IMG/VR virus record: IMGVR_UViG_3300050821_001788 | Location: 1 to 44,371 of that record | Length of the DNA stretch: 44,371 nt | Direction: 5' to 3' (one strand) | From: a virus | Shown here: positions 2,680 through 43,920 of the stretch, in pieces | Position numbering within the stretch: the first letter of the stretch is position 1 | Layout: the number at the start of each line of letters is the position of its first letter | The notes under the pieces: generated by a model | What the model saw: the letters and a program-made list of their open reading frames with translations, nothing else | Told to the model about the DNA's origin: nothing | Databases searched by the model: none | Made by a program: the position numbers and the translations under genes

Positions 2680-3408
2680 TCACTGCGCTGCTTGTGCTGG
2701 CGGAACCGCATCCGGTCGCCAGTTGTAGTCCTCCTCAGTACCGCCACCGTTCAGCCATCCTTGGAGGGAGACGTAATAGGGATGATCGTGATAGCGTTTG
2801 TTGTGGTAGGGCTTGAGAGACCCGTCGGCTTTGGGTTCAGCTAACGAAGTCGTAGTAGGCGCAGCCGTAGTCTCGGCAGACAATATCGGGGCAATCTCTG
2901 ACGAGACAGTAGTCGTCGAACCAACAATAGGGTCCGCGACACTCTGACCCGCGTCCTCGATCGACTTGACGACCTCTGGCACGGGCTGTGTTTGATCCGC
3001 AATCTCATGCCAGCCTTGACCAGTTAAAGCCTGTTCCATGTTTGCCGTCTGAGTCGCTAGCTTTGGCTCCGCCTTCGGCGTCGCCTCCGCTACGCCTTCA
3101 GCCTTAGCTTTCGCGATAGCCTCCGGCATACCAATCGCACGCTTGATACCATCCAGCCGATCCTCCGCTTCCAAGGCGCGAAAGCCTGCCTCATCGCGCT
3201 CTGCCTCCACAGAGCGCAGCTTGGCTTGGGTTTCATCCTGCTGCGCCTTCATTTCCATAATCCGGATTTCTAGCCGGGCTATGGTTTCGCCGTCCGTAAC
3301 CCGCTGCTTCTCATGTCTGGCGATAGTGTCCAGATGGCCCTGCTCGGCCTCCAAGGCCCTATAGGCCTCCGCAATCTCGCGGATGAAATTATGTCCGTGT
3401 TCTGTCAT
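2680..3408 (-). CDS. Coiled-coil hypothetical early protein
   Basis: A 242-residue protein in three parts: a heptad-like charged coiled coil (about residues 10-95), a low-complexity stretch rich in A, T, S and P (100-195), and a compact aromatic tail (about 200-235, KPYHNKRYHDHPYYVSLQGW). No enzymatic domain is visible. The coiled coil suggests an oligomer or scaffold-like role, but this is inference. The ATG at 3408 is preceded by AAAGGA. It is followed directly by an intrinsic terminator. Confidence 0.6.
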   Translation of the reverse strand: MTEHGHNFIREIAEAYRALEAEQGHLDTIARHEKQRVTDGETIARLEIRIMEMKAQQDETQAKLRSVEAERDEAGFRALEAEDRLDGIKRAIGMPEAIAKAKAEGVAEATPKAEPKLATQTANMEQALTGQGWHEIADQTQPVPEVVKSIEDAGQSVADPIVGSTTTVSSEIAPILSAETTAAPTTTSLAEPKADGSLKPYHNKRYHDHPYYVSLQGWLNGGGTEEDYNWRPDAVPPAQAAQ

Positions 3409-3605: not shown

Positions 3606-4298
3606 TTAGTGTGCGGTATGACCCGCAGCCGGCTTCTGCCTAGGCGCAGCCATACCGGCTTGCTTGGCAGACAGCGGAGCCTTGTCGCCTTTCTTCTTCG
3701 GCGGCACTTTCGGCTTCGCCTTCACCTCGTCGGAGTTGGCCTTGTCCCCGACCAACGCAAACAGGTCGAGGCCCTTCGTACCCTTGGCCTCACTCACGCG
3801 CTCAGCGAGGTTCTTTCTCGCCAATTCCATGAGATGAGGATTACGCTCAAGGATAATCTTCGCAGCCGCAGTATGCTCCTTGGCAGAATACGCTCCGACC
3901 TTCTGACCCGAACTCCGGATCAAGTCCTTGAACATATTCTTCGCAAGGCGCATGGCTTCAGTCTGCTCGGCACCGGAAGCCTTAGCCTTCTTCGCACCGG
4001 GGACAATACCATCGCGCAATTGCGCTAGGGTTTTCTCCGCTGCTTTCAAGACTTCCGCCTTCCGATCTTCCAACTCCTTGCCTTCCAGCTTGGTGATACC
4101 GGCGAGAGACTTCGCCGCACCGTTGGCCTTCGCACACAGAGTATCCAGACCAAGCTGGAAGATTGCCCTGTATGTGTTATCATCCGTGATCTCATCCGAG
4201 TTGATCGTAAGCTCTCCGGCTTCGCCTTTAAGCACGATCTTGTAAATCTTCCTCGGATCAAACTCCGGCTCGCTTTCAACCGTAACGTGTTCATTCAT
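3606..4298 (-). CDS. Lysine-rich hypothetical early protein
   Basis: A 230-residue protein. The first 60 residues are acidic and look like a small beta domain (IYKIVLKGEAGELTI); the middle is helical; the last 40 residues are a very basic tail rich in K, P and A (KPKVPPKKKGDKAP). Such tails often contact nucleic acid, but no DNA-binding fold is recognised. The ATG has AAGGA about 9 nt before it. The gene is abundant-protein-like in its alanine and lysine content, and its function is unknown. Confidence 0.6.
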   Translation of the reverse strand: MNEHVTVESEPEFDPRKIYKIVLKGEAGELTINSDEITDDNTYRAIFQLGLDTLCAKANGAAKSLAGITKLEGKELEDRKAEVLKAAEKTLAQLRDGIVPGAKKAKASGAEQTEAMRLAKNMFKDLIRSSGQKVGAYSAKEHTAAAKIILERNPHLMELARKNLAERVSEAKGTKGLDLFALVGDKANSDEVKAKPKVPPKKKGDKAPLSAKQAGMAAPRQKPAAGHTAH

Positions 4299-4926: not shown

Positions 4927-4961
4927 CGGCGCCGAAATCACAATCGCGTGATGTTGCGCCG
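4927..4961 (-). other. Leader hairpin of the early transcript
   Basis: On the minus strand CGGCGC (4956-4961) pairs with GCGCCG (4927-4932), enclosing a second stem ATCAC/GTGAT with a 6-nt loop. It lies in the untranslated leader between the 5007-5034 promoter and the first early gene. No T-run follows, so it is not an ordinary terminator. Confidence 0.4.
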
Positions 4962-5006: not shown

Positions 5007-5034
5007 ATTATACACGAAATCCCGCAAAAGTCAA
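5007..5034 (-). promoter_or_regulatory. Sigma70-type early promoter reading leftward
   Basis: On the minus strand TTGACT (5029-5034) and TATAAT (5007-5012) are 16 nt apart. The element shares TTGACTT and GTGTATAAT with the promoter at 2349-2377. Transcription would start near 5000 and run into the small early genes. It lies just beside the first block of 11-bp repeats. Confidence 0.8.
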
Positions 5035-5055
5035 CAGCTTTGGTGTCGCAACATT

Positions 5056-5099
5056 CCCCGATATAACCCCGATAATCCCGCGATAGGCCCCCGATAGCC
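5056..5099 (+). repeat. Four tandem 11-bp repeats (CCCCGATANNN)
   Basis: Consecutive units are CCCCGATATAA, CCCCGATAATC, CCGCGATAGGC and CCCCGATAGCC. The 11-bp period is about one turn of the helix, so proteins bound to each unit would line up on one face. Confidence 0.75.
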
Positions 5100-5106
5100 T
5101 CATCAG

Positions 5107-5254
5107 CCAAACCATAGCACCTAGCCCCCTCCCCCTCCCTGTCTGGGTCTATCTGGGGGTTGGTGTCTTCTGTAGAGAGAGAGATTTGTGAGACGAGACA
5201 GGGCCAGATAGGCCCTTACCCATAGGGTGGGGGAGGCAGGTGCTATGGTTTTGG
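5107..5254. repeat. Long dyad with 16-17 bp arms
   Basis: The left arm CCAAACCATAGCACCT (5107-5122) matches the reverse complement of 5238-5254, which differs by one extra A. The arms are 115 bp apart and their outer ends are close to the 11-bp repeat blocks. Confidence 0.7.
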
Positions 5255-5260
5255 GTATCG

Positions 5261-5293
5261 GGCTATAGGGGGATCATCGGGGGATCATCGGGG
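5261..5293 (-). repeat. Three tandem 11-bp repeats in inverted orientation
   Basis: Read on the minus strand the units are CCCCGATGATC, CCCCGATGATC and CCCCTATAGCC. They are related to the units at 5056-5099 (the last differs from CCCCGATAGCC at one base) but point the other way. A further CCCGATA lies at 5256-5262, out of phase. Confidence 0.75.
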
Positions 5294-5404
5294 GGAGATC
5301 GAAGCGCGAGGATGTAACATTTCGTGATTGGACATTCGCGGCGATTGGGCGCAAGATGCTTGGGCGATGGCGATCAAGCCTCGCTTAACCCTAAGGGGAA
5401 TGAT

Positions 5405-5937: not shown

Positions 5938-6333
5938 ATGGAAGAGGACGGGTTCTTTGATTATTCGGCCTTGATGCATTGTGCTGTGTATGCGCTATTG
6001 CGGAAAGGCGTGGTGGTGTATATTGGACAATCTAAGTCCACGGCGCAACGATTAGCTACGCATTGTGGTAAGCGAAAGGGTAGGCCAAGGAAAGTTGGGT
6101 TCACTCAGAAGATTCCTGTTGGGTTTGCTTTTGATGCAATTTGGGTTCGGCCGTGTATGCTTGGCGAACTAAGCACGATTGAAGTTGCGATGATTAAGAA
6201 GTACCAGCCGAAATACAATCAAAAGCATATGCCAGCCCCACCACCGATCGCGTTGGAAATGCTGATCGACCTGATGCCGACCTATCAAATGCCGAAGCCC
6301 ACCCCCGAACCAAGGTCCTGGAGACGACTGTGA
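5938..6333 (+). CDS. GIY-YIG family endonuclease
   Basis: A 131-residue protein. The first strand VYALL (17-21) and second strand VVYIGQS (26-32) are the GIY and YIG elements; a basic helix with R38 follows, and the catalytic acid is probably E82 in IEVAMIKKYQPKYN (81-94), a typical end of the domain. Such single-domain nucleases nick DNA and are often free-standing mobile endonucleases, sometimes repair-type enzymes. The C-terminal 35 residues are proline-rich and unlike the domain. The ATG at 5938 has GGAAGGGAG just before it. It is the first gene after the promoter at 5871-5898, and its C-terminus SWRRL carries the ribosome site for the terminase small subunit. Confidence 0.85.
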   Translation: MEEDGFFDYSALMHCAVYALLRKGVVVYIGQSKSTAQRLATHCGKRKGRPRKVGFTQKIPVGFAFDAIWVRPCMLGELSTIEVAMIKKYQPKYNQKHMPAPPPIALEMLIDLMPTYQMPKPTPEPRSWRRL

Positions 6334-6998
6334 AGCCTACCCTTCACCGAGGAAAGATCGCGAAGCATCCTACGATCCTGTCAGTGCGAGTGCTGACGCG
6401 GGAGGATTTGGCGTGTCTGAAGACCAACGAGCGGACGGTGCCACGGGTGAAGAGCTTCCGCGATTCGCATCATCGCCTTGCGAGGCTTTGCGCCGCTGGG
6501 CTCCGTAATGAAGAAATCTTGCGGATCACAGGGTTCTCGTACGTTCGCCTTAGCACGCTCAAGATGGACCCGGCGTTTCAGGAACTTATCGCCCAATACC
6601 GCGATAAGGTAACCCAGGCCTTCGTCGCGTCGCAAGACGAGTTCTTCGAAACCTCGACGTCGAACATGCTTCGCGCAGAGCGCCAGATCGAGGAGCATCT
6701 AGACCGGGCGGACGAAGAAGGCGAACTCCTTCCGGTCAAGACCCTAATGGCCCTCACTGCCGATCGCGCCGATCGCTTCGGCTACGGAAAGAAAACGATA
6801 AACACCAACATCAACGTCGACTTCGCTGGTCGTATGGAGAGAATGATGGCCAAGCAAGGCCAAGCGACAGTAATCGATGCCAAACCTGCCTCGATAGCTC
6901 AACTAGAGCAGGACCTTAGAAGTCCGATGGATACAGGTGAAACTCCTGTTCGGGGCGCCACAATCGTCGCCGCTTCGGCTGGCGTTCGGCGACGATAG
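6330..6998 (+). CDS. Terminase small subunit (probable)
   Basis: A 222-residue protein immediately before the large terminase. Residues about 35-70 (HRLARLCAAGLRNEEILRITGFSYVRLSTL) form a helix-turn-helix that would bind the packaging site, and residues 75-170 are helical, fitting the oligomerisation core; the tail is low-complexity. This is the architecture of small terminases that load genome DNA on the motor. Sequence similarity to a named family is weak, so the call rests on the helix-turn-helix and position. The GTG start at 6330 overlaps the upstream TGA (GTGA) and follows GGAG by 6 nt. Confidence 0.75.
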   Translation: MKPTLHRGKIAKHPTILSVRVLTREDLACLKTNERTVPRVKSFRDSHHRLARLCAAGLRNEEILRITGFSYVRLSTLKMDPAFQELIAQYRDKVTQAFVASQDEFFETSTSNMLRAERQIEEHLDRADEEGELLPVKTLMALTADRADRFGYGKKTINTNINVDFAGRMERMMAKQGQATVIDAKPASIAQLEQDLRSPMDTGETPVRGATIVAASAGVRRR

Positions 6999-7009: not shown

Positions 7010-8581
7010 ATGCTCGATCGGATATCCTGGCATGGCTCTCCGATCTCAGAGCGCTCCCCCGACTCTAATTGGCAAGAACAGCTTCTCGAATGGCTCGCCT
7101 CGGTCCGCGACGATCCGCTAGAGTTCGTCCTTGGCGCGTTCCCTTGGGGCGAGACCGGTACCCAACTCGAAGCCTACACCGGCCCAATGCCCTGGGCGAT
7201 CGATCTCATGGGTCGGATCAAATCCGGCCTCCTGACCGCAGACGAAGCGATCCAAGAAGCAGTCGCATCCGGCCACGGTATCGCGAAGTCCACCACCGTT
7301 GCAATGATCACCCTCTGGGCCTTTATGACCTTCCCAGACTGTCGCGGGGTGATCACCGCGAACACTGAAACGCAATTAAAGACGAAGACCTGGGCCGAAC
7401 TCGGCAAGTGGTTCAACCTCTGCTGGTTCTCGCGGGAGTTCTTCACCCTCAACGCCACGTCCCTCGTCTCCAAGGACCCCGAGCGCGAACGCACCTGGCG
7501 CATCGACATGATCCCTTGGTCCAAGACCAATCCGCAAGCATTCGCCGGTCTCCATAACAAAGGCAAGCGAATGCTAATGATCTTCGACGAGGCTTCCGAA
7601 ATCGAAGACATAATCTGGGAAACCGCCGAAGGCGCGTTCTCCGATCGCGACACGCAACTGATCTGGCTCGTTTTCGGCAACCCCACCCGCAACACCGGCC
7701 GCTTCCGCGAGTGCTTCGACGGTGGGCAACACCACGGCTTCTGGCACACGACGCAGATCGACTCCCGCACTGTGCCGATCTACAACCGCTCCCGCGCTGA
7801 GCGCTTAATCAAAACCTACGGCGAAGATTCCGACTACGTTCGTATCCGTATTCTTGGCCAGTTCCCACGCCAAGGCCTGATGGAATTCTTCTCCGCTGCC
7901 GACATCGACGCGGCAATGTCGCCCGACCGCGAAGTCTACATCGATGCACAGACACCGCTCGCAATGGGGGTCGACGTTGCGCGCTACGGGCGTAACAACT
8001 CGGTTATATTCCCGCGCAAAGGCCGCGATGCGCGAACGATCGCGAGAAAGGTCTTCAATGGAATCAACACCGTCGAACTCGCCAATTGGGTCTTCGATTG
8101 TTGGACTCAGTGGCATCCTGATGGTATTTTCATTGACGGTGGCGGTGTTGGTGGTGGCGTTGTCGATCAGTGTCGGGCCAAGCATCTTCACGTGTGGGAA
8201 ATCCAATTCGGCGCAAAGGACTCCGTCACTGGAGTCAATAACAACAACTCCGGTGAAAAGTACGCCAATATGCGCGCAGCGATCTACGGCGCCTGTCGCT
8301 CTGCCCTCCCAACCCTGATGCTCCCAAACGATCCCGACCTCCGCAACGCCATGCTCGCGATCCGTTACACGTTTAATAAGAACGACGAAATCCTTTTGGT
8401 CTCCAAAGAAGACTTAATGGAAGACAATCCGGGTCTAATCCTCGACGACCTCGACGCGCTCTGCCTTACCTTCGCTGGGCCCCTTGCGCCCCATCCCGGC
8501 GCTGGCCGCGAAGGTCCGCAGGTTGAAATCCACGTTAGCGAATATAACCCATTCGACGCTAAGCACATGGAAGCCGCATGA
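7010..8581 (+). CDS. terL: Terminase large subunit
   Basis: A 523-residue packaging motor. The ATPase has a Walker A-like GHGIAKST (88-95), and Walker B with catalytic acid at LMIFDEAS (189-196, D193 and E194); FGNPTR (222-227) is the usual coupling region. The RNase H-like nuclease has acids at D322 (MGVDVARYG), D376 (IFIDGGGVGGG) and D482 (DDLDALCLTFA). It cuts concatemers and pumps DNA into the procapsid through the portal. Length and motif order are complete. The ATG follows GAGGAGGGGGAG. It overlaps the next gene by ATGA. Confidence 0.95.
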   Translation: MLDRISWHGSPISERSPDSNWQEQLLEWLASVRDDPLEFVLGAFPWGETGTQLEAYTGPMPWAIDLMGRIKSGLLTADEAIQEAVASGHGIAKSTTVAMITLWAFMTFPDCRGVITANTETQLKTKTWAELGKWFNLCWFSREFFTLNATSLVSKDPERERTWRIDMIPWSKTNPQAFAGLHNKGKRMLMIFDEASEIEDIIWETAEGAFSDRDTQLIWLVFGNPTRNTGRFRECFDGGQHHGFWHTTQIDSRTVPIYNRSRAERLIKTYGEDSDYVRIRILGQFPRQGLMEFFSAADIDAAMSPDREVYIDAQTPLAMGVDVARYGRNNSVIFPRKGRDARTIARKVFNGINTVELANWVFDCWTQWHPDGIFIDGGGVGGGVVDQCRAKHLHVWEIQFGAKDSVTGVNNNNSGEKYANMRAAIYGACRSALPTLMLPNDPDLRNAMLAIRYTFNKNDEILLVSKEDLMEDNPGLILDDLDALCLTFAGPLAPHPGAGREGPQVEIHVSEYNPFDAKHMEAA

Positions 8582-22565: not shown

Positions 22566-24235
22566 AAAAGCTCCTCCTTATCGCGCTTCTGGCCCTTCTT
22601 CCAAGCCTTGCTCAGGCCCAATGCAATGGTGTCTTTGCCGCTAATACCGTCTGCGGAAACAATACCGTATCACCACGAACTCCATTCGCGATCCCATCAT
22701 CCACCAACCTTTCCGGTCCTGGCACTACCGTAGTCAACGACCTCGTTCTCTGGGGCAATACCTCAGGCACTTCTCTACTCGATAAGGCCCCTAGTGCCTT
22801 TACTAAGACCGATGATACCAACGTCACTATGTCCCTTGGAGGGACACCCTCGACCGCGCTGGTTAACTCGATGTCCGTTACCATGGGTTGGTCAGGGACC
22901 CTTGCCGCGGCACGACTAAACGCGAACGTCGTCCAAGCATTTACTAATGATACCAATGTCACCGCGTCGATCACCGCACAGAACGCAACCTTAGGCTGGA
23001 CTGGTACCCTTGCCGCAGGACGACTTAACTCCAATGTTGTTCAAGCTTTCACTAACGATACCAACGTCACAGCCTCGATCACAGCCCAAAACGCTATCCT
23101 TGGTTGGACCGGACAGCTAGCCATCGCCCGTGGTGGAACTGGCGCCTCAACTCAAGCAGGCGCAGCTGCATCGATCTTTCCCACACCCGTTACCACAGGT
23201 GACGTGGTTTATTGGAATGGTTCAGCTTGGGTTACGCTCACAGGGAATAGCACCGGTACGCAGTTTCTTGCTGAGAATGCTTCGGGCGTTCCATCTTGGG
23301 TCACGGTCTCTGGTACTGGTACAGTCACTGCGATCACTCCCGGTGCAGGTATAGTCTCCTCAGTCACAGCCTCTTGCTCTCAAAGCAACATAACTACCTC
23401 TGGCACCCTCTCCAAAGCTGAATGCGTTAATGCACAAACCGGAGTCACTTATACAATTCTCGATGGCGATCGTGCGAAGCTAATCACTGCGTCCAACATC
23501 GCATCACAAGCCTACACTATCGCTCAAGCAGGTGCAGCCTCGGCCTTTCAAGCTGGCTGGTACGTTGATATTCAGAACCTAAGTGCTAGTGGCGTTGCGG
23601 GTGCTGGTACCGTTACTATTACAGCTACTACGTCAACATTCTCTTCCACTGGTACTACCGCGCTTAAGGTTTACCCCGGTCAAACTGCCCGTATCATATC
23701 TGATGGAACCAATTACCAAGTTATCAATATCACACCCGGTGGTGGCTCCAATGTTTTATTGGCAACTCTAACTGCCAGTGCATCAGCATCCCTTTCTGAC
23801 ACAACCAGCCTCACTTCTGCCTTTAATGATTATGAAATCGTCTTCGAAAACATCATTCCAGGTACCACTAGTCAAAATTTACAATTACAAGTGCATGCTA
23901 GTGGGGCATTTCAAACTACGGGCTATATTACACAAGCTCAAGCTAACAACTCAGGTGCAGCATCTTTTGCACAAGTTACGACTTATATTTTTGTAATGTC
24001 GTCATTGGAAAGTGCTATTGCTCCTGGTATTTCAGGAAGCTGCCGTTTATTCGGCCCGCTGACCGCAGCAATTAGAAATTGGACTTGCTTCACTACTGGC
24101 GTATCAGGTTCTACAGCTATAACATTAATGTCTTCAGGCTTTTGGAATAGCGCGACTACGATCGACGGTTTCCAATTGTTATTTACTAGTGGCAACATTA
24201 CTAGTGGTACAATCAAAGTCTATGGAAAGAAATAA
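22562..24235 (+). CDS. Large secreted-type tail-fibre-like protein 7 (Sec signal peptide)
   Basis: A 557-residue protein. Residues 1-20 form a signal peptide (MKKLLLIALLALLPSLAQA, then Q). Residues about 120-191 are two almost identical 36-residue repeats containing VVQAFTNDTNVTASITAQNA and LGWTG, the second ending in ARGGTGAST, a motif known from tail fibres just before a glycan-binding or tip region. The C-terminal half (residues 240-557) is a beta-rich likely tip (LLATLTASASASLSDTTSLTSAFNDYEIVFENI, a pattern also seen in phage fibre tips). It is the best candidate here for receptor binding, but the export signal is puzzling for a virion fibre. Confidence 0.72.
   Translation: MKKLLLIALLALLPSLAQAQCNGVFAANTVCGNNTVSPRTPFAIPSSTNLSGPGTTVVNDLVLWGNTSGTSLLDKAPSAFTKTDDTNVTMSLGGTPSTALVNSMSVTMGWSGTLAAARLNANVVQAFTNDTNVTASITAQNATLGWTGTLAAGRLNSNVVQAFTNDTNVTASITAQNAILGWTGQLAIARGGTGASTQAGAAASIFPTPVTTGDVVYWNGSAWVTLTGNSTGTQFLAENASGVPSWVTVSGTGTVTAITPGAGIVSSVTASCSQSNITTSGTLSKAECVNAQTGVTYTILDGDRAKLITASNIASQAYTIAQAGAASAFQAGWYVDIQNLSASGVAGAGTVTITATTSTFSSTGTTALKVYPGQTARIISDGTNYQVINITPGGGSNVLLATLTASASASLSDTTSLTSAFNDYEIVFENIIPGTTSQNLQLQVHASGAFQTTGYITQAQANNSGAASFAQVTTYIFVMSSLESAIAPGISGSCRLFGPLTAAIRNWTCFTTGVSGSTAITLMSSGFWNSATTIDGFQLLFTSGNITSGTIKVYGKK
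22919..23134 (+). repeat. Two tandem 108-bp coding repeats
   Basis: Units at 22919-23026 and 23027-23134 encode 36-residue repeats that differ at only a few residues near their ends, while many third codon positions differ. A more distant partial copy precedes them. Confidence 0.75.
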
Positions 24236-25484: not shown

Positions 25485-26656
25485 TGGCTGATCAGACGAG
25501 CATGGTTAATCGAGCGCTACAAACCTTCGGTTCTCGAACAACCGTGACCGCTGCGCAGTTAGCTAATAACAGCCTTAACGAGGCCATTCAAGCAAATCTA
25601 ATCTACACCCCAATGCGTCGACGATTGCTTCGAATGGCCCCGTGGGCTTGTGCGTTCAATACTCAAACGCTCAACTTCATCACCGCAGTCTACGGTACCC
25701 CTGAGAACGTAACCTCCGCGCAGAACATCTGGGTCAAAGGCCAGCCGGCGCCACCTTGGGCCTATGCGTATCAATACCCGATTGATTGCCTTCGAGCGGT
25801 CTGGGTGACTCCGCAGACTGCGACCGGCTTCGCTTCAGGTATCCCGATCACCACCGCAGTCACAGGCGGTGCGCCGACTTTCTGGCAAGGGCCTCCGGTT
25901 AAGTATTCAGTCGGTGTGGATCAGTTCTTTAACGTAACCGCGGCAGCGGTAGTCGCGGGTGGAACTGGCTACGCCATCGGCGATATAATCGTTCTAGCCC
26001 TTCAACCTAACACCTCGATCGTTACTAACGTCCTAAACCCAACCCCTGGCTCAGTTATCGGAACTCTCACAGGAATCGTCGGATTCCCGATCGGTTCTCC
26101 GCAAGGCGCTGCGCCAATGTTTAAGGTGACTGGAGTCGGAGGCGGTGGAGCAGTCACGGCCGTGGTCCCATACCCAGCGACCCGTGACGAAGACGTTCCG
26201 TTTACTGGATCGCTCTACTACCAATACGCGGCTCAGCCCGTAGCACAAAACTATACAACCGGTGCTGGCTCTGGCGCTACCTTCAACCTCACCTATGGCG
26301 GTCCAGGCGATCAGCGCGTAATCCTTACCAATCAAGAATTCGCGATCCTCAACTACGTCCGCGACGTCACCGACGAGAACATCTTCGACGATGATTTCCA
26401 AGAAGCCTTCGCCCTGATCCTCGGCGCTCGCCTTTGTGTCGCACTCACCGGTGATAAGCAACTCGCAAACCTCAAGATCGCCGAAGCCAATGCTATGATC
26501 ACCGAAGCCCGATCGACCGATGCGAACGAAGGGCTCAAGGTCAACGATGTAACCCCAGACTGGCTCCGAATTCGCGGAATCGATTTCGTTGAAGACTACT
26601 CCGGACCATACAATACTGGCTTCAACTGGGGCGCGATTTGGCCAGGGTACACTTAA
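25484..26656 (+). CDS. Tail tubular protein A (T7 gp11-like adaptor) with inserted module
   Basis: A 390-residue protein. The start (TSMVNRALQTFGSRTTV, SLNEAIQANLIYTPMRRRLLRMAPWACAF, then WAYAYQYPIDCLRAVWV) and the C-terminal helices (DDDFQEAFALILGARLCVALTGD) match gp11-like adaptors, which join portal and nozzle. It is much longer than T7 gp11, the extra being an inserted beta module around residues 150-245 containing AAAVVAGGTGYAIGDIIVLAL. A related module occurs in the nozzle protein. The ATG lies in a TAATG overlap. Confidence 0.85.
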   Translation: MADQTSMVNRALQTFGSRTTVTAAQLANNSLNEAIQANLIYTPMRRRLLRMAPWACAFNTQTLNFITAVYGTPENVTSAQNIWVKGQPAPPWAYAYQYPIDCLRAVWVTPQTATGFASGIPITTAVTGGAPTFWQGPPVKYSVGVDQFFNVTAAAVVAGGTGYAIGDIIVLALQPNTSIVTNVLNPTPGSVIGTLTGIVGFPIGSPQGAAPMFKVTGVGGGGAVTAVVPYPATRDEDVPFTGSLYYQYAAQPVAQNYTTGAGSGATFNLTYGGPGDQRVILTNQEFAILNYVRDVTDENIFDDDFQEAFALILGARLCVALTGDKQLANLKIAEANAMITEARSTDANEGLKVNDVTPDWLRIRGIDFVEDYSGPYNTGFNWGAIWPGYT

Positions 26657-29296
26657 ATGGGCCAACCAGTAATTCAAACTTCTTTTAACGCAGGCGAATG
26701 GGCACCGACCCTTTACGCTCGTGTTGATTTAGCGAAATATCATTCAGGTGCGGCGCTACTCCGCAACTTCACTGTCGACTATCGCGGTGGCGCAACGACA
26801 CGTCCAGGGACTAGATACGTCGCAACGTCGCAAAACAACGCCGCAGGGCCTCCGCGATTAGTCCGCTTTCAAGCCTCGTTCACCGTTTCTTATATTGTCG
26901 AGTTCGGTGTCTTTAATGGCGCGGGCTATGCTCGGTTCTATACTAACGGTGCACAGGTTCTATTAGGCGGTGTGCCATATACCATTGCTTCGCCCTACAC
27001 CTCGGCTGAGCTACCACAGATCAAATTCACTCAGAACGTCAACCAACTAATCATCAACCACCCTAACCATCCCGCATATATCCTAACCCTAATCTCCGCA
27101 ACCAACTGGACCCTTGTACCAGCCGTCTTTGGTTCAACTCTTGCGGCTCCTACAGGCTTATCCCCTACCACAAATCTCGCGGGGGGAACTGTCGCATATG
27201 CTTATGTAATCACAGCTGTTGACGTTAACGGCCAAGAATCTGCTCCATCAGCTTTCGCTGTATTTGGGCCTTTCTTTGCTGATATTCGAAATACCTTAGG
27301 AACTAATACTATCACTTGGACCCCAGTCACCGGTGCACAGAGCTATAACGTTTATCGAGCAAACCCTCGTTATGGTACTAACGTTCCAGCCGGTTCGGAT
27401 TTCGGTTTTGTTGGTAATGTAACCAGTGCGATATTCTATGATAGTGATATTACACCTGACTTCTCTCAAGGCCCACCGATACCACAGAACCCTTTTGCTG
27501 GTTCTGGTGTTCAGTCTGTTAATATAACCGGTACTGGGTCTTTTGGTGGTGGGTCTGCCGTTCCTGCTATATCCTTCACTGGTGGCGGTGGGTCCGGCGC
27601 TACTGCTATAGCTACGCTTTCTGCTATAGCAGTAGGTCTTAACTCGGGAGGGAATAATTATGCGGTTGGTGATATTGTATCTATTCATGGTAATACTGGC
27701 GGTTTAACATTACAGGTTACATCCGTAAACACTCTTAGCCTACTTCAGATTACTGGGTTTATAGTTATAAATAGTGGAATAGTCACTTCAGGTAACGTGC
27801 CTACAAATCCCGTTGCGGGCACAAATCCTCGTAGTGGTGTAGAAGCTACCTTTTTCGTAACTTGGGGAGTATCTTCGATTGGTCTTACATCCCCCGGTTC
27901 AGGTTACGCCACCCCGCCAACTGTTGGTATTAGTGGCGGCGCGGGTGCTTCTGCAACTGCCGTTCTCGGTGCCCCATCATCAGGCAACCCTACTGTTCCA
28001 GGGTTCATCGACCAACGCTTCGTTGAAGCTGCACCAGTACTAAATCCACAGCAGCTTAATCTTTCTCAGCCAGGGTCTTACTTCAATTTCAATACTACCT
28101 CTCCGGTGCAACCAGATAATGCAATCCAAGGAACATTAATCGCAGGAGAGCTAAGCACTATCGAATGGTTGATCACTCAGCCACAAGGTTTAATTATCCT
28201 TGCGGATAATAAAGCTTGGCTTCTCAATGGTGGCTCTCCAAGTGCAGCGGTCTCTGCTACCGAATTCGTTGCTAGACCACAGTCTTATAATGGCGCAGCC
28301 AGTGTATGTCCGCCGATCGTTGCGAATGATAACATCCTATATGTTCAATCAAAGGGCTCGATCGTCCGCGATCTCGTCTTTAACTTCTACACTAACGTCT
28401 TCACCGGTACTGATATTACAGTCCTATCCTCACATCTATTCTACGGTTTTCAGCTTCTTGAATGGGCTTGGGCAGAGGAACCTTTCAAGATCGTCTGGGC
28501 AGTTCGCAATGATGGAGCTTTGTTATCACTAACCTTCCTTAAGGAACAAGAGCTAATTGCTTGGTCGCATAGTGATACCCAAGGTGCGTTTAAATCAGTC
28601 GCGTCGATAACGGAATCGACGTCGACGATAGGTAACGTTAACGCGGTCTACACTTGCGTACAACGGAACATTAACGGAGCTAGCGTTTACTATATTGAAC
28701 GCTTCGTCGAATTAGTCTGGCCACAAGATTACAAATCCTCATGGCAGGTTGATGCTGGGATTAACTATACTGGTGCACCGGCTACGATCTTCTCTAGTGC
28801 GCAGCATCTCGCAGGTGCGGCCGTAACTGGCGTTGCGGACGGTGCCGTGATTAACTTCACCATGCCAGTCTCGGGCACTTTCCAATTCGGCGTTGGAGGC
28901 ACGCCAGGGTTAACTGGGATACCAAATGCTAGTATCGTTACCGTTGGTCTATCCTTCCTTCCGCAACTTCAAACCCTTCCGCTAGACCTTGGCGAGCCTA
29001 CTATCCAAGGTAAGCGAAAGAAGATCGCCGGGGTCACTCTCCGTGTAGCGAATGCCTTAGGCCTTTCAATGGGTCGATCTGCCGCTACAGCGCTACCACT
29101 ACAAGACCTTATCATTGGAAACGTTGGTTCAATGACGAATCAACAAGTCACCGGCCTTGTCTCAGGCGACGCGCGTGGATACATGGACCCGCTCTGGGAC
29201 GTGCCAGGGCAATACTTTATCCAACAAACCAACCCTTACCCAGCTTCTATCCTTGGAGTTATCCCAGAGATCGTAATGGGAGACACAGAGAAATGA
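26657..29296 (+). CDS. Tail tubular protein B (T7 gp12-like nozzle) with inserted module
   Basis: An 879-residue protein with the typical nozzle start (VIQTSFNAGEWAPTLYARVD, YHSGAALLRNFTVDYRGGATTRPGTRYV) and later blocks (GFIDQRFVEA, WLLNGG, SKGSIVRDLVFNF, FKIVWAVRNDGALLSLTFLKEQELIAWSH), all of the gp12 family. Six copies would form the tail end through which DNA leaves. Residues about 275-435 are an insertion with GGNNYAVGDIV and GSGYATPPTVGISGG segments similar to the module in the adaptor. The inserted part is somewhat different in codon use. Confidence 0.88.
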   Translation: MGQPVIQTSFNAGEWAPTLYARVDLAKYHSGAALLRNFTVDYRGGATTRPGTRYVATSQNNAAGPPRLVRFQASFTVSYIVEFGVFNGAGYARFYTNGAQVLLGGVPYTIASPYTSAELPQIKFTQNVNQLIINHPNHPAYILTLISATNWTLVPAVFGSTLAAPTGLSPTTNLAGGTVAYAYVITAVDVNGQESAPSAFAVFGPFFADIRNTLGTNTITWTPVTGAQSYNVYRANPRYGTNVPAGSDFGFVGNVTSAIFYDSDITPDFSQGPPIPQNPFAGSGVQSVNITGTGSFGGGSAVPAISFTGGGGSGATAIATLSAIAVGLNSGGNNYAVGDIVSIHGNTGGLTLQVTSVNTLSLLQITGFIVINSGIVTSGNVPTNPVAGTNPRSGVEATFFVTWGVSSIGLTSPGSGYATPPTVGISGGAGASATAVLGAPSSGNPTVPGFIDQRFVEAAPVLNPQQLNLSQPGSYFNFNTTSPVQPDNAIQGTLIAGELSTIEWLITQPQGLIILADNKAWLLNGGSPSAAVSATEFVARPQSYNGAASVCPPIVANDNILYVQSKGSIVRDLVFNFYTNVFTGTDITVLSSHLFYGFQLLEWAWAEEPFKIVWAVRNDGALLSLTFLKEQELIAWSHSDTQGAFKSVASITESTSTIGNVNAVYTCVQRNINGASVYYIERFVELVWPQDYKSSWQVDAGINYTGAPATIFSSAQHLAGAAVTGVADGAVINFTMPVSGTFQFGVGGTPGLTGIPNASIVTVGLSFLPQLQTLPLDLGEPTIQGKRKKIAGVTLRVANALGLSMGRSAATALPLQDLIIGNVGSMTNQQVTGLVSGDARGYMDPLWDVPGQYFIQQTNPYPASILGVIPEIVMGDTEK

Positions 29297-38053: not shown

Positions 38054-38713
38054 ATGCCTGATATCATGCAATACATCTGGCCACTGACCACGCTAGTGAT
38101 CTTCGGCGGTATGCTAGCTCTCTGCTGGAAGGCGTTGAACATCGCACATGATCTTGCGCAGATTGTGCTTAAGTCAGGGTTGGCGCAGCCGGGACAGGTG
38201 CCGCAGGTCTTGCCGATACCAAAGTCGGTACCAGTTGTACCCTCGCCTCCTATAGTCCCGGCTCCCACCCCGCCCACTCCCGAAGTCCCCGACGAAGCCG
38301 TAGACGTAGGCCTAGTGAACTTCATCAAGAAACAAGAAGGCTACTCCGCAAAGGCCTACTGGGACTTTAAGCAATACACCATCGGCTACGGTACCAAGGC
38401 CAACTCAGCAACCGAAGTTATCGACGAGGCCGAAGCCGAGCGTCGACTCCGCGCTGAGATCGTTGTGGCTGATAAGCTGGTTACCAATTTTGCCCCCGGC
38501 CTTCCAAAGGGCATCCACCAAGCCCTACTCGATCTAACCTACAACGCCGGGTCCGGCTGGGAACACCAATCCCTCGGCGCTGCGGTCAAGGCCGCGAAAT
38601 GGGACACCGTCAAAGCAGACATCCTCCAGTACAACCACGCTGGGGGACAGGTAAACGCCGCTCTAACCAAACGGCGCGAGGCTGAAGTATCGTGGTTCGA
38701 CAACCCTTTATAA
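38054..38713 (+). CDS. Membrane-anchored GH24 lysozyme (endolysin)
   Basis: A 219-residue muramidase. Residues 9-30 are a hydrophobic anchor (WPLTTLVIFGGMLALCWKAL), residues 45-80 a proline-rich linker, and residues 85-219 a GH24 lysozyme with E95, D104 and T109 (KKQEGYSAKAYWDFKQYTIGYGT region), close to the usual E-x8-D-x5-T. It cleaves peptidoglycan for lysis. The N-terminal anchor could be a signal-arrest-release (SAR) type, which would allow export by the host Sec system without a conventional holin. It heads the lysis cassette. Confidence 0.9.
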   Translation: MPDIMQYIWPLTTLVIFGGMLALCWKALNIAHDLAQIVLKSGLAQPGQVPQVLPIPKSVPVVPSPPIVPAPTPPTPEVPDEAVDVGLVNFIKKQEGYSAKAYWDFKQYTIGYGTKANSATEVIDEAEAERRLRAEIVVADKLVTNFAPGLPKGIHQALLDLTYNAGSGWEHQSLGAAVKAAKWDTVKADILQYNHAGGQVNAALTKRREAEVSWFDNPL

Positions 38714-40061: not shown

Positions 40062-40150
40062 TGTTTCCTCAGGACAACTCTGGCTGGATAATTCTCCTGC
40101 TCGCCGCGCTTGTTATCTTGTTCATGTTCGCGGTTATTCAGTTCTACTGA
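40061..40150 (+). CDS. Very small single-segment membrane peptide
   Basis: A 29-residue peptide: MFPQDNSG then one membrane helix (WIILLLAALVILFMFAVIQF). It begins in a TAATG overlap with the holin candidate. Its stop (40148-40150) lies next to the stop of the convergent replication gene. It could modulate the holin or have another membrane role. Confidence 0.5.
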   Translation: MFPQDNSGWIILLLAALVILFMFAVIQFY

Positions 40151-41424
40151 AGCAGGTTCCCATCCTGATCAATATCCGGGACTGTGGCTTTATACATCCG
40201 CAGTCCCGTTTTCGGATCGAGATTCGTCGCCCGCAGCATCCCTGCCTTTTCCATGATCCCGATGACCCGTTCGATCGAATGCATTGGGATATGTTCCTTG
40301 GCGAAGTTGATTATCTTCCGCTCCGCTACTGGGCCTCGGGCTCCGATGGTAAGCACGTAATGGTATATCTCATCCATTGCTCGGGCGTCTGCATTACCAG
40401 CACCCGCTTTGAAGATATCTGGCATGGTTGATTCTGCTTCAATAAGCCAACCAAGTGCTCGGTTGAAGTCGTCTTTGGTAAGGAGTAGCACGTCACTACG
40501 ATCGATTGCAGAGACCATTGAGAGTTTGTACAGATGAACTCGTCGTCTTGTGGCATAGTGTATAAGCTTTGGGTGTGATACTTGCGGGGGCTCTCCGAGA
40601 GTTCGCCAGTTGTTGACAGCGGTTCGGTAGTCTGGTGTAACCTCAAACTTACCAACAAGGCCAGCGATAGCATTGAGATCATGTACAAGCTCGGGACTAG
40701 GGCCAGCCGCAGTCTTGATTTCAAAGTCATCGCCGATACTCCGTTCGTCTGAGAAGATCATAATCACCCGCGAGGTGAAGCCTTGTTCCCATGCGGTCTC
40801 TGGCATGTATTTCATTAGGTTGGAAGGAGTAGTGCCACATATGAGGTTGAGTTGCGGGGATTTGATTTTGATATTAAGGTCATTTCCACGTCGCGTTTGG
40901 CCATAGGGTTGAGGATCATAGAAGTCCGACATAACGCCAATAGCTTCATCATCGTATTTATGCATGAATGCTGAGAGTTCATCAGCGGTAATATAGATGG
41001 TATTGTATTCAAGTTGATCCAGGTCTTTTCCATTTGTAATCACCACGTTTCGTTTCGATTTTGCCACCGCATCGATCATCGAACTCGCACTCATACTCGT
41101 TGGCGCATTCCTCGGGTCCGGCGTCTCCAGATAATACTTCTTCGCGGCTCGGATACTCCGCGTCTTCCCCACCCCCGGATGGCCGACTAAGAAGCAGTAG
41201 ATGTTAGGATGCAATCTCTCATTCCCCGAGATCACATACACCCGCTGCTCGACCGCCGCAGCGATCGTCGATATCGCGGCCCATTTCCGAAACAACTCCG
41301 GCGACTCAAGCGCGGCCGTTGCCTCGACGAAGGATTCGATCCAAGAGCGACACTTGCGGCTGGCGTCGCCGTTGGTCTTGGCCGGCGTAGTCTTTAAGTC
41401 CGTCTGGATTAGCTTCACTGACAT
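40144..41424 (-). CDS. P-loop ATPase, DUF3987-like (putative replicative helicase)
   Basis: A 426-residue protein. Walker A is GHPGVGKT (81-88), Walker B IYITADEL (143-150, D148 and E149), with a serine- and threonine-rich sensor region (LNLICGTTPSNLMKY) and an arginine-finger-like TSRVIMIFSDE. It begins near residue 25 with WIESFVEATAALESPELFRKWAAISTIA, the pattern of DUF3987-type phage ATPases that act as helicase or helicase loader. I chose the ATG at 41424; an in-frame ATG at 41478 lacks a ribosome site. The first 119 nt overlap the end of the polymerase gene. Confidence 0.75.
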   Translation of the reverse strand: MSVKLIQTDLKTTPAKTNGDASRKCRSWIESFVEATAALESPELFRKWAAISTIAAAVEQRVYVISGNERLHPNIYCFLVGHPGVGKTRSIRAAKKYYLETPDPRNAPTSMSASSMIDAVAKSKRNVVITNGKDLDQLEYNTIYITADELSAFMHKYDDEAIGVMSDFYDPQPYGQTRRGNDLNIKIKSPQLNLICGTTPSNLMKYMPETAWEQGFTSRVIMIFSDERSIGDDFEIKTAAGPSPELVHDLNAIAGLVGKFEVTPDYRTAVNNWRTLGEPPQVSHPKLIHYATRRRVHLYKLSMVSAIDRSDVLLLTKDDFNRALGWLIEAESTMPDIFKAGAGNADARAMDEIYHYVLTIGARGPVAERKIINFAKEHIPMHSIERVIGIMEKAGMLRATNLDPKTGLRMYKATVPDIDQDGNLLQ

Positions 41425-42811
41425 CGCCCTTGTTCCACCCCACTTTACAGTCGTAAGGAATCCGCAACACGCGACCATGCTGTAACGGGATTTCTTCGAC
41501 GAGGTCTTCTTGTAGCGCTGGGATTATTTCATCTTCGAGTTCCTCGGGGTACATGAAGGTAAGCGCGTCGTGGTCTTGCATCATTAGGATCGCGGTGCGC
41601 TTGCGCCAGATGCGGAGCATGGCTCTATTCACGATATCCGCAAGACTTCCTTGAGGATCGTATGCAATTGCTTCACGAAGCGTACTCGGGTCGTTTCGTC
41701 TACCGAAGAACCAGCGCTTGCGTCCACTAAGCGAAATAAGATATCCTTCTGTGCGAAGTCGTCGATCAACTGATCCGTGCCAAAGGAGGTGAGCAGGAAA
41801 TGCTTGAAAGTACTTTGGCTGGAAGTCTCTGACAACGGTTTCTGGAAGCTTGGCTTGTCCTGCGAGGGTCTTTGGTTGTCCACCATAATTCGAACCGTGT
41901 CCGAGCTTCTTACACATGAAACGATAACTGTAGTGTCGGTAATACGGACGTTCGGCGATATGCTTATCTCGATTGAGGTCACCGGTCCATCCAAGTTTCG
42001 ACCAGCAGATTCTAGCAACAGCTGTATGCACATCTCCAGATTCGACGGCATCTAAGTATCTCCCATCTTTGAATAGATTCCACTCGATCGCTCCAACGCA
42101 GTAGCTCTCTCCGGACTTAGCGTCGAACTTTGCGAACTTATATCCTGGGTCCGCAACGAAGATAGATCGAAGTAGCTCTTCAACGTTCTGAAGGTTTCCT
42201 CCAGTACCGAATTCGGAGAAGGAGGACGAGAATCTTCCCGTGTTAGTGCCTGCAATATTATACGAAGTTCGCATTCTTCCATCGGGATCGATTCCTGTTT
42301 TGAGTACGGAGATTTTCTTAGCAAGGTCCCGCATGGCCATCAGATGCGCTACGATTGGCTTTGCGATAAGATAGACTTCCATCTTCTCTAGCGCGGTGCG
42401 GTCTACAGTGGGTCGGCCCTTGGATCGGATCACGGGGATTTGCAGGTGTTGGTAGAAGAGCTTATGGAGATCGGGGTTGGAGCGCCAGCTGAACGTCGGC
42501 ATCCCGACACCGTCGAGGACGATCTGTTCTAGCTGCTGTTCTAGCTGGTCGATTTTGTCGTGGTAGGTGTCGATGACCTCTTGCTTCCGCCCCTGATCCA
42601 CCAATACGCCCCGCAATCGCATCTCCAGAGTCGGGCCTTGTAAGGCTCTAGAGAATGTATAGGTGCGTCTGGTACAATCATCCAATTGGGGTATAATAGT
42701 TTCAAGTACTTCCAATGTGACAACGCAATCCAGTCCATTATAAACTTGGTCTCGTTCCCATTGGTTTGTGACATCATCCGGCTTTGTTTCATCGGTGTTG
42801 ATGATCCTCAT
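41306..42811 (-). CDS. Family A DNA polymerase, polymerase part plus exonuclease motif III
   Basis: A 501-residue protein. Residues 20-40 hold VYNGLDCVVTLEV, the YxxxD motif III of a DEDDy proofreading exonuclease whose motifs I and II lie in the upstream ORF. Then come SNPDLHKLF (111-119), TGRFSS (191-196), motif A with D230 and E235 (DAKSGE), motif B around YRFMCKKLGHGSNYGG (296-311), and motif C QDHDAL (412-417), with GRKRWFFGR between. The normal motif C HDE is HDA here. It replicates phage DNA. The ATGA overlap with the upstream ORF at 42808-42811 couples the two. The final tail overlaps the ATPase gene. Confidence 0.9.
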   Translation of the reverse strand: MRIINTDETKPDDVTNQWERDQVYNGLDCVVTLEVLETIIPQLDDCTRRTYTFSRALQGPTLEMRLRGVLVDQGRKQEVIDTYHDKIDQLEQQLEQIVLDGVGMPTFSWRSNPDLHKLFYQHLQIPVIRSKGRPTVDRTALEKMEVYLIAKPIVAHLMAMRDLAKKISVLKTGIDPDGRMRTSYNIAGTNTGRFSSSFSEFGTGGNLQNVEELLRSIFVADPGYKFAKFDAKSGESYCVGAIEWNLFKDGRYLDAVESGDVHTAVARICWSKLGWTGDLNRDKHIAERPYYRHYSYRFMCKKLGHGSNYGGQPKTLAGQAKLPETVVRDFQPKYFQAFPAHLLWHGSVDRRLRTEGYLISLSGRKRWFFGRRNDPSTLREAIAYDPQGSLADIVNRAMLRIWRKRTAILMMQDHDALTFMYPEELEDEIIPALQEDLVEEIPLQHGRVLRIPYDCKVGWNKGDVSEANPDGLKDYAGQDQRRRQPQVSLLDRILRRGNGRA

Positions 42812-43920
42812 TTATCTCTACCTATCGTCTCCATCTTCCGCTCCGACTTCCAAGGTCCGTGATCAGTATAAATCGACCCAAGATACCCTAAGCCTTTGAG
42901 GCTTTCCGGCTGGAGCGCGTGGTGGAGGAGCATAGTGTCTTCGACGGCTGAAAATGTACGGATGCCGTAAGCTCGCCAGAGGAAGGCGATGTCGTAGAGC
43001 CCGTTTTGGAAGACCTTGGGTATCGATCCATCCTCAAGAACCGAACGTATAAGTCTCCAACACTGTTGTTCAAGCTCTTTAGTAGGCCAATAAGATCGGC
43101 TCTTTGTTCGTTCGTCATGGATAGGTATAACGATTGCAAGGTCGTGTCTTGGAGCGAAGCCAATGCATGTAATTTGGTTGCCACTGGTTTCAATATCGAC
43201 GGAAAGGATTTTACAGCCTTTAATGAATCGCTTGATGAATGTTCTAATGTAAGCGATCTCCGGCTCGATCCAGATTTCGCACTTCGGTCTGCGCACATCA
43301 GGGTAATCCTTTTCTTTGTTGATCTTCGTCAGGTCCGCTACCGTCGTCGGTCTGAGTTCCCATTGCCGCGTGACCGCAGCAGGGTGATAAGTACACAGAA
43401 GCTTGTAACCAGAGACAGTATGACTACTGGTACAAGTAGTCCCACGAAGCTTCGTGATACCAGTCCGACCGCCCAAAGCCCACAGAGCAGAGTTACCCAA
43501 AGCAACAATGAGATTTGGATCGTGAGCGAGTATTTCGTCACCAAGGCGATCCAGTTCATATTGGAACTCCTTTCGTACGTAGCCGGATTTGATCAGGGCT
43601 GGGAAGGCAGGGATCGATCCGACCTTCGGCCCACAGAAGAACTCTAGCTTATTCCCTGGCGGATGCTGTTGAAAGACGTTCGTCCGATAGACCTCAGGAT
43701 GCAATTCCCAGATCGCGTCTAGGCACCACGGGTCGTATGTTCGATAGTACTTCCCCATGAACTCTCGGTCAGAGGAGGTGAACTGAATCACCCCCGCATC
43801 GTTCAGCATGCGGAGGAGTTCAGCGCCCGAAGGACCAACGAACCCGCGACCGATTTTGGCTTCTTGTTCGCCTTGGGCCTCGCCTACCAAAAATACGGGA
43901 GTTGAAGAACCCATACTCAT
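42808..43920 (-). CDS. Uracil-DNA glycosylase fused to N-terminal part of proofreading exonuclease
   Basis: A 370-residue protein. Residues 1-200 are a uracil-DNA glycosylase of the family 4 type: GEAQGEQE (13-20), FVGPSGAELL (27-36), LIVALGNSALWALGG (137-151) and YHPAA (178-182). Residues 236-350 are the first part of a DnaQ/Pol I-type exonuclease: motif I D242-I-E244, motif II with N306 and D310 (FQNGLYDIAFL), then EDTMLLHHAL; motif III lies in the polymerase ORF. It would remove uracil from DNA and, with the polymerase, proofread. The iron-sulphur cysteines of typical family 4 enzymes are not clearly placed. ATGA overlaps join it to both neighbours. Confidence 0.88.
   Translation of the reverse strand: MSMGSSTPVFLVGEAQGEQEAKIGRGFVGPSGAELLRMLNDAGVIQFTSSDREFMGKYYRTYDPWCLDAIWELHPEVYRTNVFQQHPPGNKLEFFCGPKVGSIPAFPALIKSGYVRKEFQYELDRLGDEILAHDPNLIVALGNSALWALGGRTGITKLRGTTCTSSHTVSGYKLLCTYHPAAVTRQWELRPTTVADLTKINKEKDYPDVRRPKCEIWIEPEIAYIRTFIKRFIKGCKILSVDIETSGNQITCIGFAPRHDLAIVIPIHDERTKSRSYWPTKELEQQCWRLIRSVLEDGSIPKVFQNGLYDIAFLWRAYGIRTFSAVEDTMLLHHALQPESLKGLGYLGSIYTDHGPWKSERKMETIGRDK

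Follow-up and report, generated by a model that had tools for sequence, protein, structure and literature searches.

Iteron origins, such as those of phage lambda and of iteron plasmids, consist of helically phased tandem repeats next to a stretch rich in A/T. The arrays are usually located on one side of the AT-rich region, and the gene for the cognate initiator protein is commonly close by. Iterons also occur in parC of plasmid R1, where the unit length is 11 bp. In this ParR/ParM system, the iterons are arranged in two clusters around a gap (PMC5016525). In the origins OriS and OriL of HSV, an AT-rich spacer is flanked by inverted initiator sites, and hairpins can form (PMC12543377). The lactococcal c2-type phages (Ceduovirus) have an origin of variable sequence, located in the non-coding region from which the early and late modules diverge (PMC7150918). 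Three ori types with palindromic, direct and indirect repeats are distinguished there, and the function is kept in all of them (PMC7150918). No title or abstract describing the element reported here was found in the open-access literature searched.

Gene layout around the element

The window, meaning the whole stretch of DNA that was analysed, comprised the 44,371 bp of an incomplete IMG/VR record of a soil phage. Its genome was a mosaic. The structural genes were akin to those of epsilon15 and BPP-1 (portal PF12236, major capsid PF20911). Leftward genes extended from 5.0 kb to the left end and occurred again at 40-44 kb; relatives of 47-51 kb showed that these genes formed one early block. 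The early (left) and late (right) blocks diverged at a gap at 4.9-5.4 kb. Features of this region are listed in Table 1.

The polymerase of the replication gene group was split into two genes (42808-43920 and 41306-42811, - strand). Its exonuclease part carried a fused family-4-like uracil-DNA glycosylase domain, giving the impression of a polymerase module with a uracil reader of its own. On the late side, at least 27 relatives had a GIY-YIG-type endonuclease gene separating the dyad from the putative small terminase gene, in a spot held by HNH nucleases in other phages. The window and relatives also encoded a fast-evolving early protein (window 2680-3408, - strand), which starts as a coiled coil, continues through a long low-complexity region and ends in the conserved C-terminal tail KRYxxxxYYVSLxxWLxGGGTEEDYNWRP. 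A 108-bp tandem repeat in two copies, which were 80% alike, was located within a structural gene (22898-23109).

Table 1. Features at and around the inverted repeat, in window coordinates
Feature	Position	Strand	Remark
Largest conserved early gene adjoining the element	3606..4298	-	230 aa, function unassigned
Predicted sigma70 promoter TTGACT-16-TATAAT, outside the left array	5007..5034	-	reads left into early genes; 11/12 consensus bases
Left array of four 11-bp units in direct orientation, CCCCGATNNNN type	5056..5099	+	
Large quasi-palindrome, left arm	5059..5156	+	pairs with 5204-5301
Inner arm motif, left, CCAAACCATAGCACCT	5107..5122	+	
Left-arm C-rich tract	5128..5140	+	pairs with 5224-5236, 92% complementary
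Simple-sequence centre AGAGAGAGAGA, dyad loop	5174..5184	.	AG run in the window
Large quasi-palindrome, right arm	5204..5301	-	
Right-arm G-rich tract	5224..5236	-	partner of 5128-5140
Inner arm motif, right, AGGTGCTATGGTTTTGG	5238..5254	-	complement of 5107-5122
Right array, three 11-bp units, opposite direction	5261..5293	-	
Conserved flanking element TGTAACATTTCGTGATTGGACA, outside the right array	5313..5334	+	late-gene side
GIY-YIG-type endonuclease gene, first recognisable late-side gene	5938..6333	+	phrog_1111, E 2.7e-5; UvrC-like match
Putative small terminase gene	6330..6998	+	position and N-terminal HTH-like stretch
Large terminase subunit	7010..8581	+	phrog_2
Replication genes: DUF3987 helicase/primase, PolA polymerase, UDG-exonuclease	40144..43920	-	same leftward block

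Anatomy of the mirror-image element

The gap between the early and late genes held an imperfect inverted repeat of about 250 bp (5056-5301). The first-pass annotation had reported 11-bp units, dyad arms and opposite units that formed a near-symmetrical array between divergent gene blocks. All of these were recovered at their positions, and the array turned out to be larger than described, with arms of 98 nt. The units of the left array were CCCCGATATAA, CCCCGATAATC, CCGCGATAGGC and CCCCGATAGCC. Read on the - strand, the right array contained CCCCGATGATC twice and CCCCTATAGCC once. The two inner arm motifs differed by a single inserted A. Since the large arms paired over their 98 nt, with 72% complementarity and a 47-nt loop, the units, the inner arms and the C-rich and G-rich tracts were regarded as one quasi-palindrome.

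The dyad lay far above chance. Its local-alignment score was 101, whereas 500 shuffles of the gap that preserved dinucleotides gave 27 +/- 5 and at most 47. When each arm was shuffled separately, the score was 97 compared with 30 +/- 5 (maximum 59). The runner-up dyad across the whole window scored 46. Autocorrelation peaked at lag 11 in both arms, with values of 0.65 (left) and 0.66 (right), and the DNA folding energy of the single-stranded element corresponded to z = -6.5.

A sigma70 match of at least 10/12 at the left site was present in 34/43 relatives compared with 15/86 controls, and on the right side in 2/43. The flanking element at the right array recurred in relatives with different iterons, and a loose form was detected in 20/44. 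The motif on the late-side flank was either TCACGAAATGTTACA or the palindrome TCACGAAATCGTGA, with palindromic variants in L106, L113 and L117, and looked like an operator. A similar ATCACAATCGCGTGAT was located on the early side near 4936-4952.

Conservation among relatives

Relatives were collected by two IMG/VR protein scans, for the portal and the large terminase. These yielded 148 loci, about 12 of which were second loci on contigs already counted, and nearly all relatives were metagenomic contigs. The denominator comprised the 50 loci in which the sequence reached 2.6 kb or more upstream of TerL. A dyad with a score of at least 52, an empirical threshold, was present in 45 of these, with second-best scores of 33-57 in the rest of the stretch searched. 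An inverted repeat within the Cas4-like gene of G004 scored 74, slightly more than the 70 of the true dyad, so that the score alone is no proof of the element. The arm-by-arm shuffle test gave z = 4.9-18.1 in 49/49 dyads tested. The dyad was located 1.5-2.9 kb upstream of TerL, and at 3.8-4.6 kb in three genomes that had extra genes between TerS and TerL. Its distance to the putative small terminase gene was 0.8-1.6 kb in 43 genomes. In the gene orders of the window's own family, family 1, the early and late blocks diverged from a non-coding gap, and the mirror orientation was conserved among the relatives.

Autocorrelation over 88 arms peaked at lags 11, 22 and 33, and 11 was the best period in 52/88. 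The centre contained dinucleotide or A6/T6 runs in 43/44 relatives compared with 81/880 control windows. It held 64% A+T, compared with 44% in the arms. The letters of the units varied, being of the CCCCGATA type in the nearest relatives, the CAAGGTGATAC type in L106, the TCATTAG type in L117 and the TCTAGAA type in L163. The literal CCCCGAT motif was kept in the closest relatives only and was rejected as a conserved feature. A nucleotide search among cultured phages gave no match. Absence of the repeats from closely related genomes with the same gene order, which the first-pass annotation had named as a refuting result, did not apply to the architecture, present in 45/50; the literal repeat sequence was not conserved.

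Coupled change of both arms

The left arm matched the right arm of its own genome with a mean of 79, compared with 32 for mixed arms, and the own partner was the best match in 35/44. Among 26 pairs of related genomes, 236 columns grouped the two arms within a genome and 71 columns showed the cross grouping that served as the chance measure. The coupled changes included inner segments outside the iterons, for example in L137 versus L144. Coupled columns were rare in the closest genome pairs (one each), suggesting that the coupling process is slow. Coupled change may have its source in a binding protein common to both arms, in pairing between them or in homogenisation by template switching. The last of these is documented for imperfect inverted repeats (PMC8604942).

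Linkage to replication genes across phage families

Gene sharing was assessed by tblastn of proteins from the window and its relatives. The control phages were a limited choice and the dyad positions outside family 1 were not preset, so that what follows is comparative and does not amount to a formal test. The window shared portal, capsid and internal virion genes with JessA, BPP-1, epsilon15, MW202478, AF and MZH0603, as well as with MW202722, phiV10, PfDIW6, PS25B.1 and Carin1. Replication genes of the window were not detected by tblastn in these eleven phages. Ten of them showed no dyad above background, with top scores of 44-63 that were at most 8 above the runner-up. BPP-1 was ambiguous, with a repeat score of 70 near the small terminase gene. 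This repeat was not counted because other repeats in the same genome had similar scores of 67 and 65. At 26577-26740, BPP-1 carries inverted TTTGCCTCG repeats around an A/T-rich centre, approximately 300 bp upstream of the small terminase gene, which are possibly that phage's own origin or packaging site.

MW202489 and MW202554, both uncultured, shared the DUF3987 helicase/primase, PolA and UDG-exonuclease with the window at 22-30% identity (primase 22-25% and PolA 24-30% for the two families). No similarity of their terminase, portal or capsid to those of the window was detectable by tblastn, and the large terminase of MW202489 had no significant similarity to that of the window. MW202489 held a dyad with a score of 81-82 (z = 12) at 38297-38691, inside the leftward early block and approximately 1.5-2 kb from the divergence point. 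In its family of uncultured relatives (z = 12-13), the sixteen dyads examined showed 11/22/33 periodicity, with a simple-sequence centre in 15/16 and the own arms matching best in 15/16. The dyad of MW202554 (35699-36079) scored 121 (z = 18) and was located approximately 0.85 kb inside the early block. Dyads were also present in the uncultured relatives L277, L278 and L283, near MW202554. Microcystis phage Mel-JY34 showed a weaker dyad with a score of 63 (z = 9.5), and Vibrio phage VS-ABTNL-3 possibly has a weaker form.

A clear dyad was not seen in Kuura (PolA 36%), EBPR podovirus 3, Tiera and PMBT14, despite the presence of some replication genes of the module. LS06 had a related DUF3987 gene without a clear dyad; a repeat with a score of 84 in this phage sits in an AT-rich coding region and was not counted. 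The dyad was mostly absent from more divergent MW202489-type loci, with TerL identities of about 53% or less. The record of Caulobacter phage Kuura has a direct repeat of about 600 bp at its ends (1-613 and approximately 43208-43813), the right edge of which lies inside the divergent gap beside an A7 tract. DUF3987 was detected in nearly all replication-module phages compared, PMBT14 being an exception. Judged from these distributions, the element appears to follow the replication genes and not the virion genes.

Search for the reader protein

Ordered binding of one protein to the repeats had been suggested in the first-pass annotation. This suggestion agrees with the strict 11-bp period and with units that change in concert in the two arms; the protein itself was not found. 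Profile matches revealed no initiator domain in nearby or early genes. The 230-aa protein of the adjoining early gene was rejected as the unit binder, since it did not co-vary with unit similarity (partial correlation 0.03). Its AlphaFold model, of moderate confidence, had no structural match, and there was no PDB match. The putative small terminase was likewise rejected as the reader. Its correlation with unit similarity was weak, with partial correlations of 0.28 for the whole protein and 0.17 for the HTH part, and is explainable by linkage. DUF3987 proteins are predicted helicases (PMC5862659), and the DUF3987 protein of the module is both a candidate helicase and a candidate reader protein. 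A telomere resolvase (protelomerase) gene (PF16684) was absent from seven records, which may be incomplete; the positive control was detected.

Discussion

On the basis of sequence comparison, the element is best read as a bidirectional replication origin, with a probability of roughly 65%. The reading draws on three observations: the element travels with replication and not virion genes, its facing helical arrays surround a meltable centre, and it lies inside the early block in two families. The first-pass annotation had named the locus as the best candidate for a replication origin. This proposal gained from the conserved architecture and from the link to the replication module across unrelated virion genes; initiation itself is what we infer. 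Counting against it are the failure to find an initiator gene next to the element, the phages that have replication genes of the module but lack a clear dyad, and, in family 1, a position that would also suit the control of two divergent promoters. The origin would probably belong to a module of the DUF3987 helicase/primase, the family-A polymerase and the UDG-exonuclease, together with AAA_24 (Sak4-like) and PD-(D/E)XK (Cas4-like) genes in the closer members. Nucleotide skew was set aside as evidence for an origin. GC skew, which the first-pass annotation had proposed as a check, had its extremes near the dyad and half a genome away; these coincided with gene orientation, and the sign of the skew was opposite to the usual one. 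The coding strands were C-rich, in contrast to the G excess normally found on leading strands. In most genomes the AT-skew minimum was close to the dyad, where gene orientation also flips.

From the anatomy, its conservation, the coupled change of the arms and the link to the replication genes, we infer a mechanism in which protein binding, bending, opening, helicase loading and initiation would follow one another. Copies of one phage-specific protein would occupy the 11-bp units of each arm, one per helical turn and on a single face of the DNA. The mirror orientation would set two protein filaments facing each other. The two assemblies would meet across the centre, bend the DNA and open the A/T-rich or dinucleotide-repeat spacer, and the quasi-palindrome may extrude as hairpins under negative supercoiling. 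The helicase/primase would then be loaded on both exposed strands, and two forks would diverge into the early and late blocks.

Promoter control, although unlikely, is the main alternative to the origin. According to this explanation, the element is a shared control region for divergent early and late promoters, at which a phage regulator on the mirrored 11-bp units represses or activates both, possibly by looping the centre. It would fit the outward-pointing predicted sigma70 promoter outside the left array in 34/43 relatives, the conserved element outside the right array and the position of the block between early and late genes throughout family 1, and mirrored directional sites would present alike to both promoters. 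However, the dyads of MW202489 and MW202554 lie inside the early block, away from the divergence point, and the element tracks the replication genes and not the promoter position. Promoter control also needs neither complementarity of the inner, non-iteron arms nor an A/T-rich or dinucleotide centre. Improbable is a pac site at which the small terminase would initiate packaging, as at P1 pac, where repeats flank the cut. In its favour, 43 relatives have the putative small terminase gene at a distance of 0.8-1.6 kb, and in the distant relative Kuura a direct terminal repeat ends inside the divergent gap. The element did not follow the terminase genes across phages: it also occurred with unrelated terminases, at 0.9-5.3 kb from TerL, and phages whose TerL, portal and capsid genes are related were found to have no comparable element. 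Contig ends were not concentrated at the dyad, the assemblies were circularly permuted, and TerS similarity explained little of the unit similarity, as the partial correlations given above indicate.

It is very improbable that the mirror symmetry is functionless, an old inverted duplication homogenised by template switching in which only one arm matters. Polymerase template switching does homogenise the arms of imperfect inverted repeats (PMC8604942), and the coupled changes reach beyond the units. Homogenisation would explain the likeness of the arms. It would not explain why, in three families and with changing letters, the same place keeps this layout, an 11-bp period and a simple-sequence centre. 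Less probable still is a centromere-like partition site resembling parC of plasmid R1 with its 11-bp iterons. The equal unit length and the clustering around a gap are matched by such a site, but the two clusters here are mirror-oriented and not direct. The early genes searched included none recognisable as a partition gene, with a ParM search (PF06406) that had no working positive control, and no integrase or plasmid genes were present among the proteins tested.

Beyond the reading as a replication origin, we tentatively suggest, at somewhat less than even odds, that the element represents a distinct and widespread class of origins. Such origins would combine two facing 11-bp helical arrays, a quasi-palindrome of 250-400 bp and a meltable simple-sequence centre, and would form a cassette with DUF3987/PolA across unrelated virion types. 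The recognition sequence would turn over freely while unit length, symmetry and centre stay fixed, through a co-evolving putative initiator and arm-to-arm homogenisation. If true, this would provide a sequence-independent way to find origins across a large group of phages from soil and freshwater that have not been cultured. It would also offer a natural series in which the binding site of an initiator was changed many times with the geometry of the machine fixed, and would mean that origin and replication genes travel together between unrelated virion modules.

Comparison with known systems

Of the systems compared, R1 parC differs in the orientation of its repeats, which are direct in both clusters, whereas the right cluster of the element is inverted. 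The HSV origins contain few boxes, in contrast to iterons with a helical period. Among the genes tested, none was seen to be a relative of UL9, the SF2 helicase that serves as the HSV initiator; the helicase genes found here matched the SF1 (UvrD/PIF1-like) and DUF3987 families. Inverted sites, an AT-rich spacer and hairpin potential of the HSV type are features of the element. With iteron origins, the element has in common the tandem repeats in helical phase (11-bp units; lags 11, 22 and 33) and, among the relatives, the A/T-rich region beside the repeats, for which the window itself has an AG run. It departs from them in having two facing arrays within a quasi-palindrome and no adjacent initiator gene that could be found. 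For the c2-type origin, the passages on it in PMC7150918 describe neither a mirrored 11-bp array nor a quasi-palindrome of such size, and report that a plasmid with this origin replicates in the host in the absence of phage proteins. The c2-type origin resembles the element in its location in the gap between early and late genes and in letters that differ between phages (PMC7150918).
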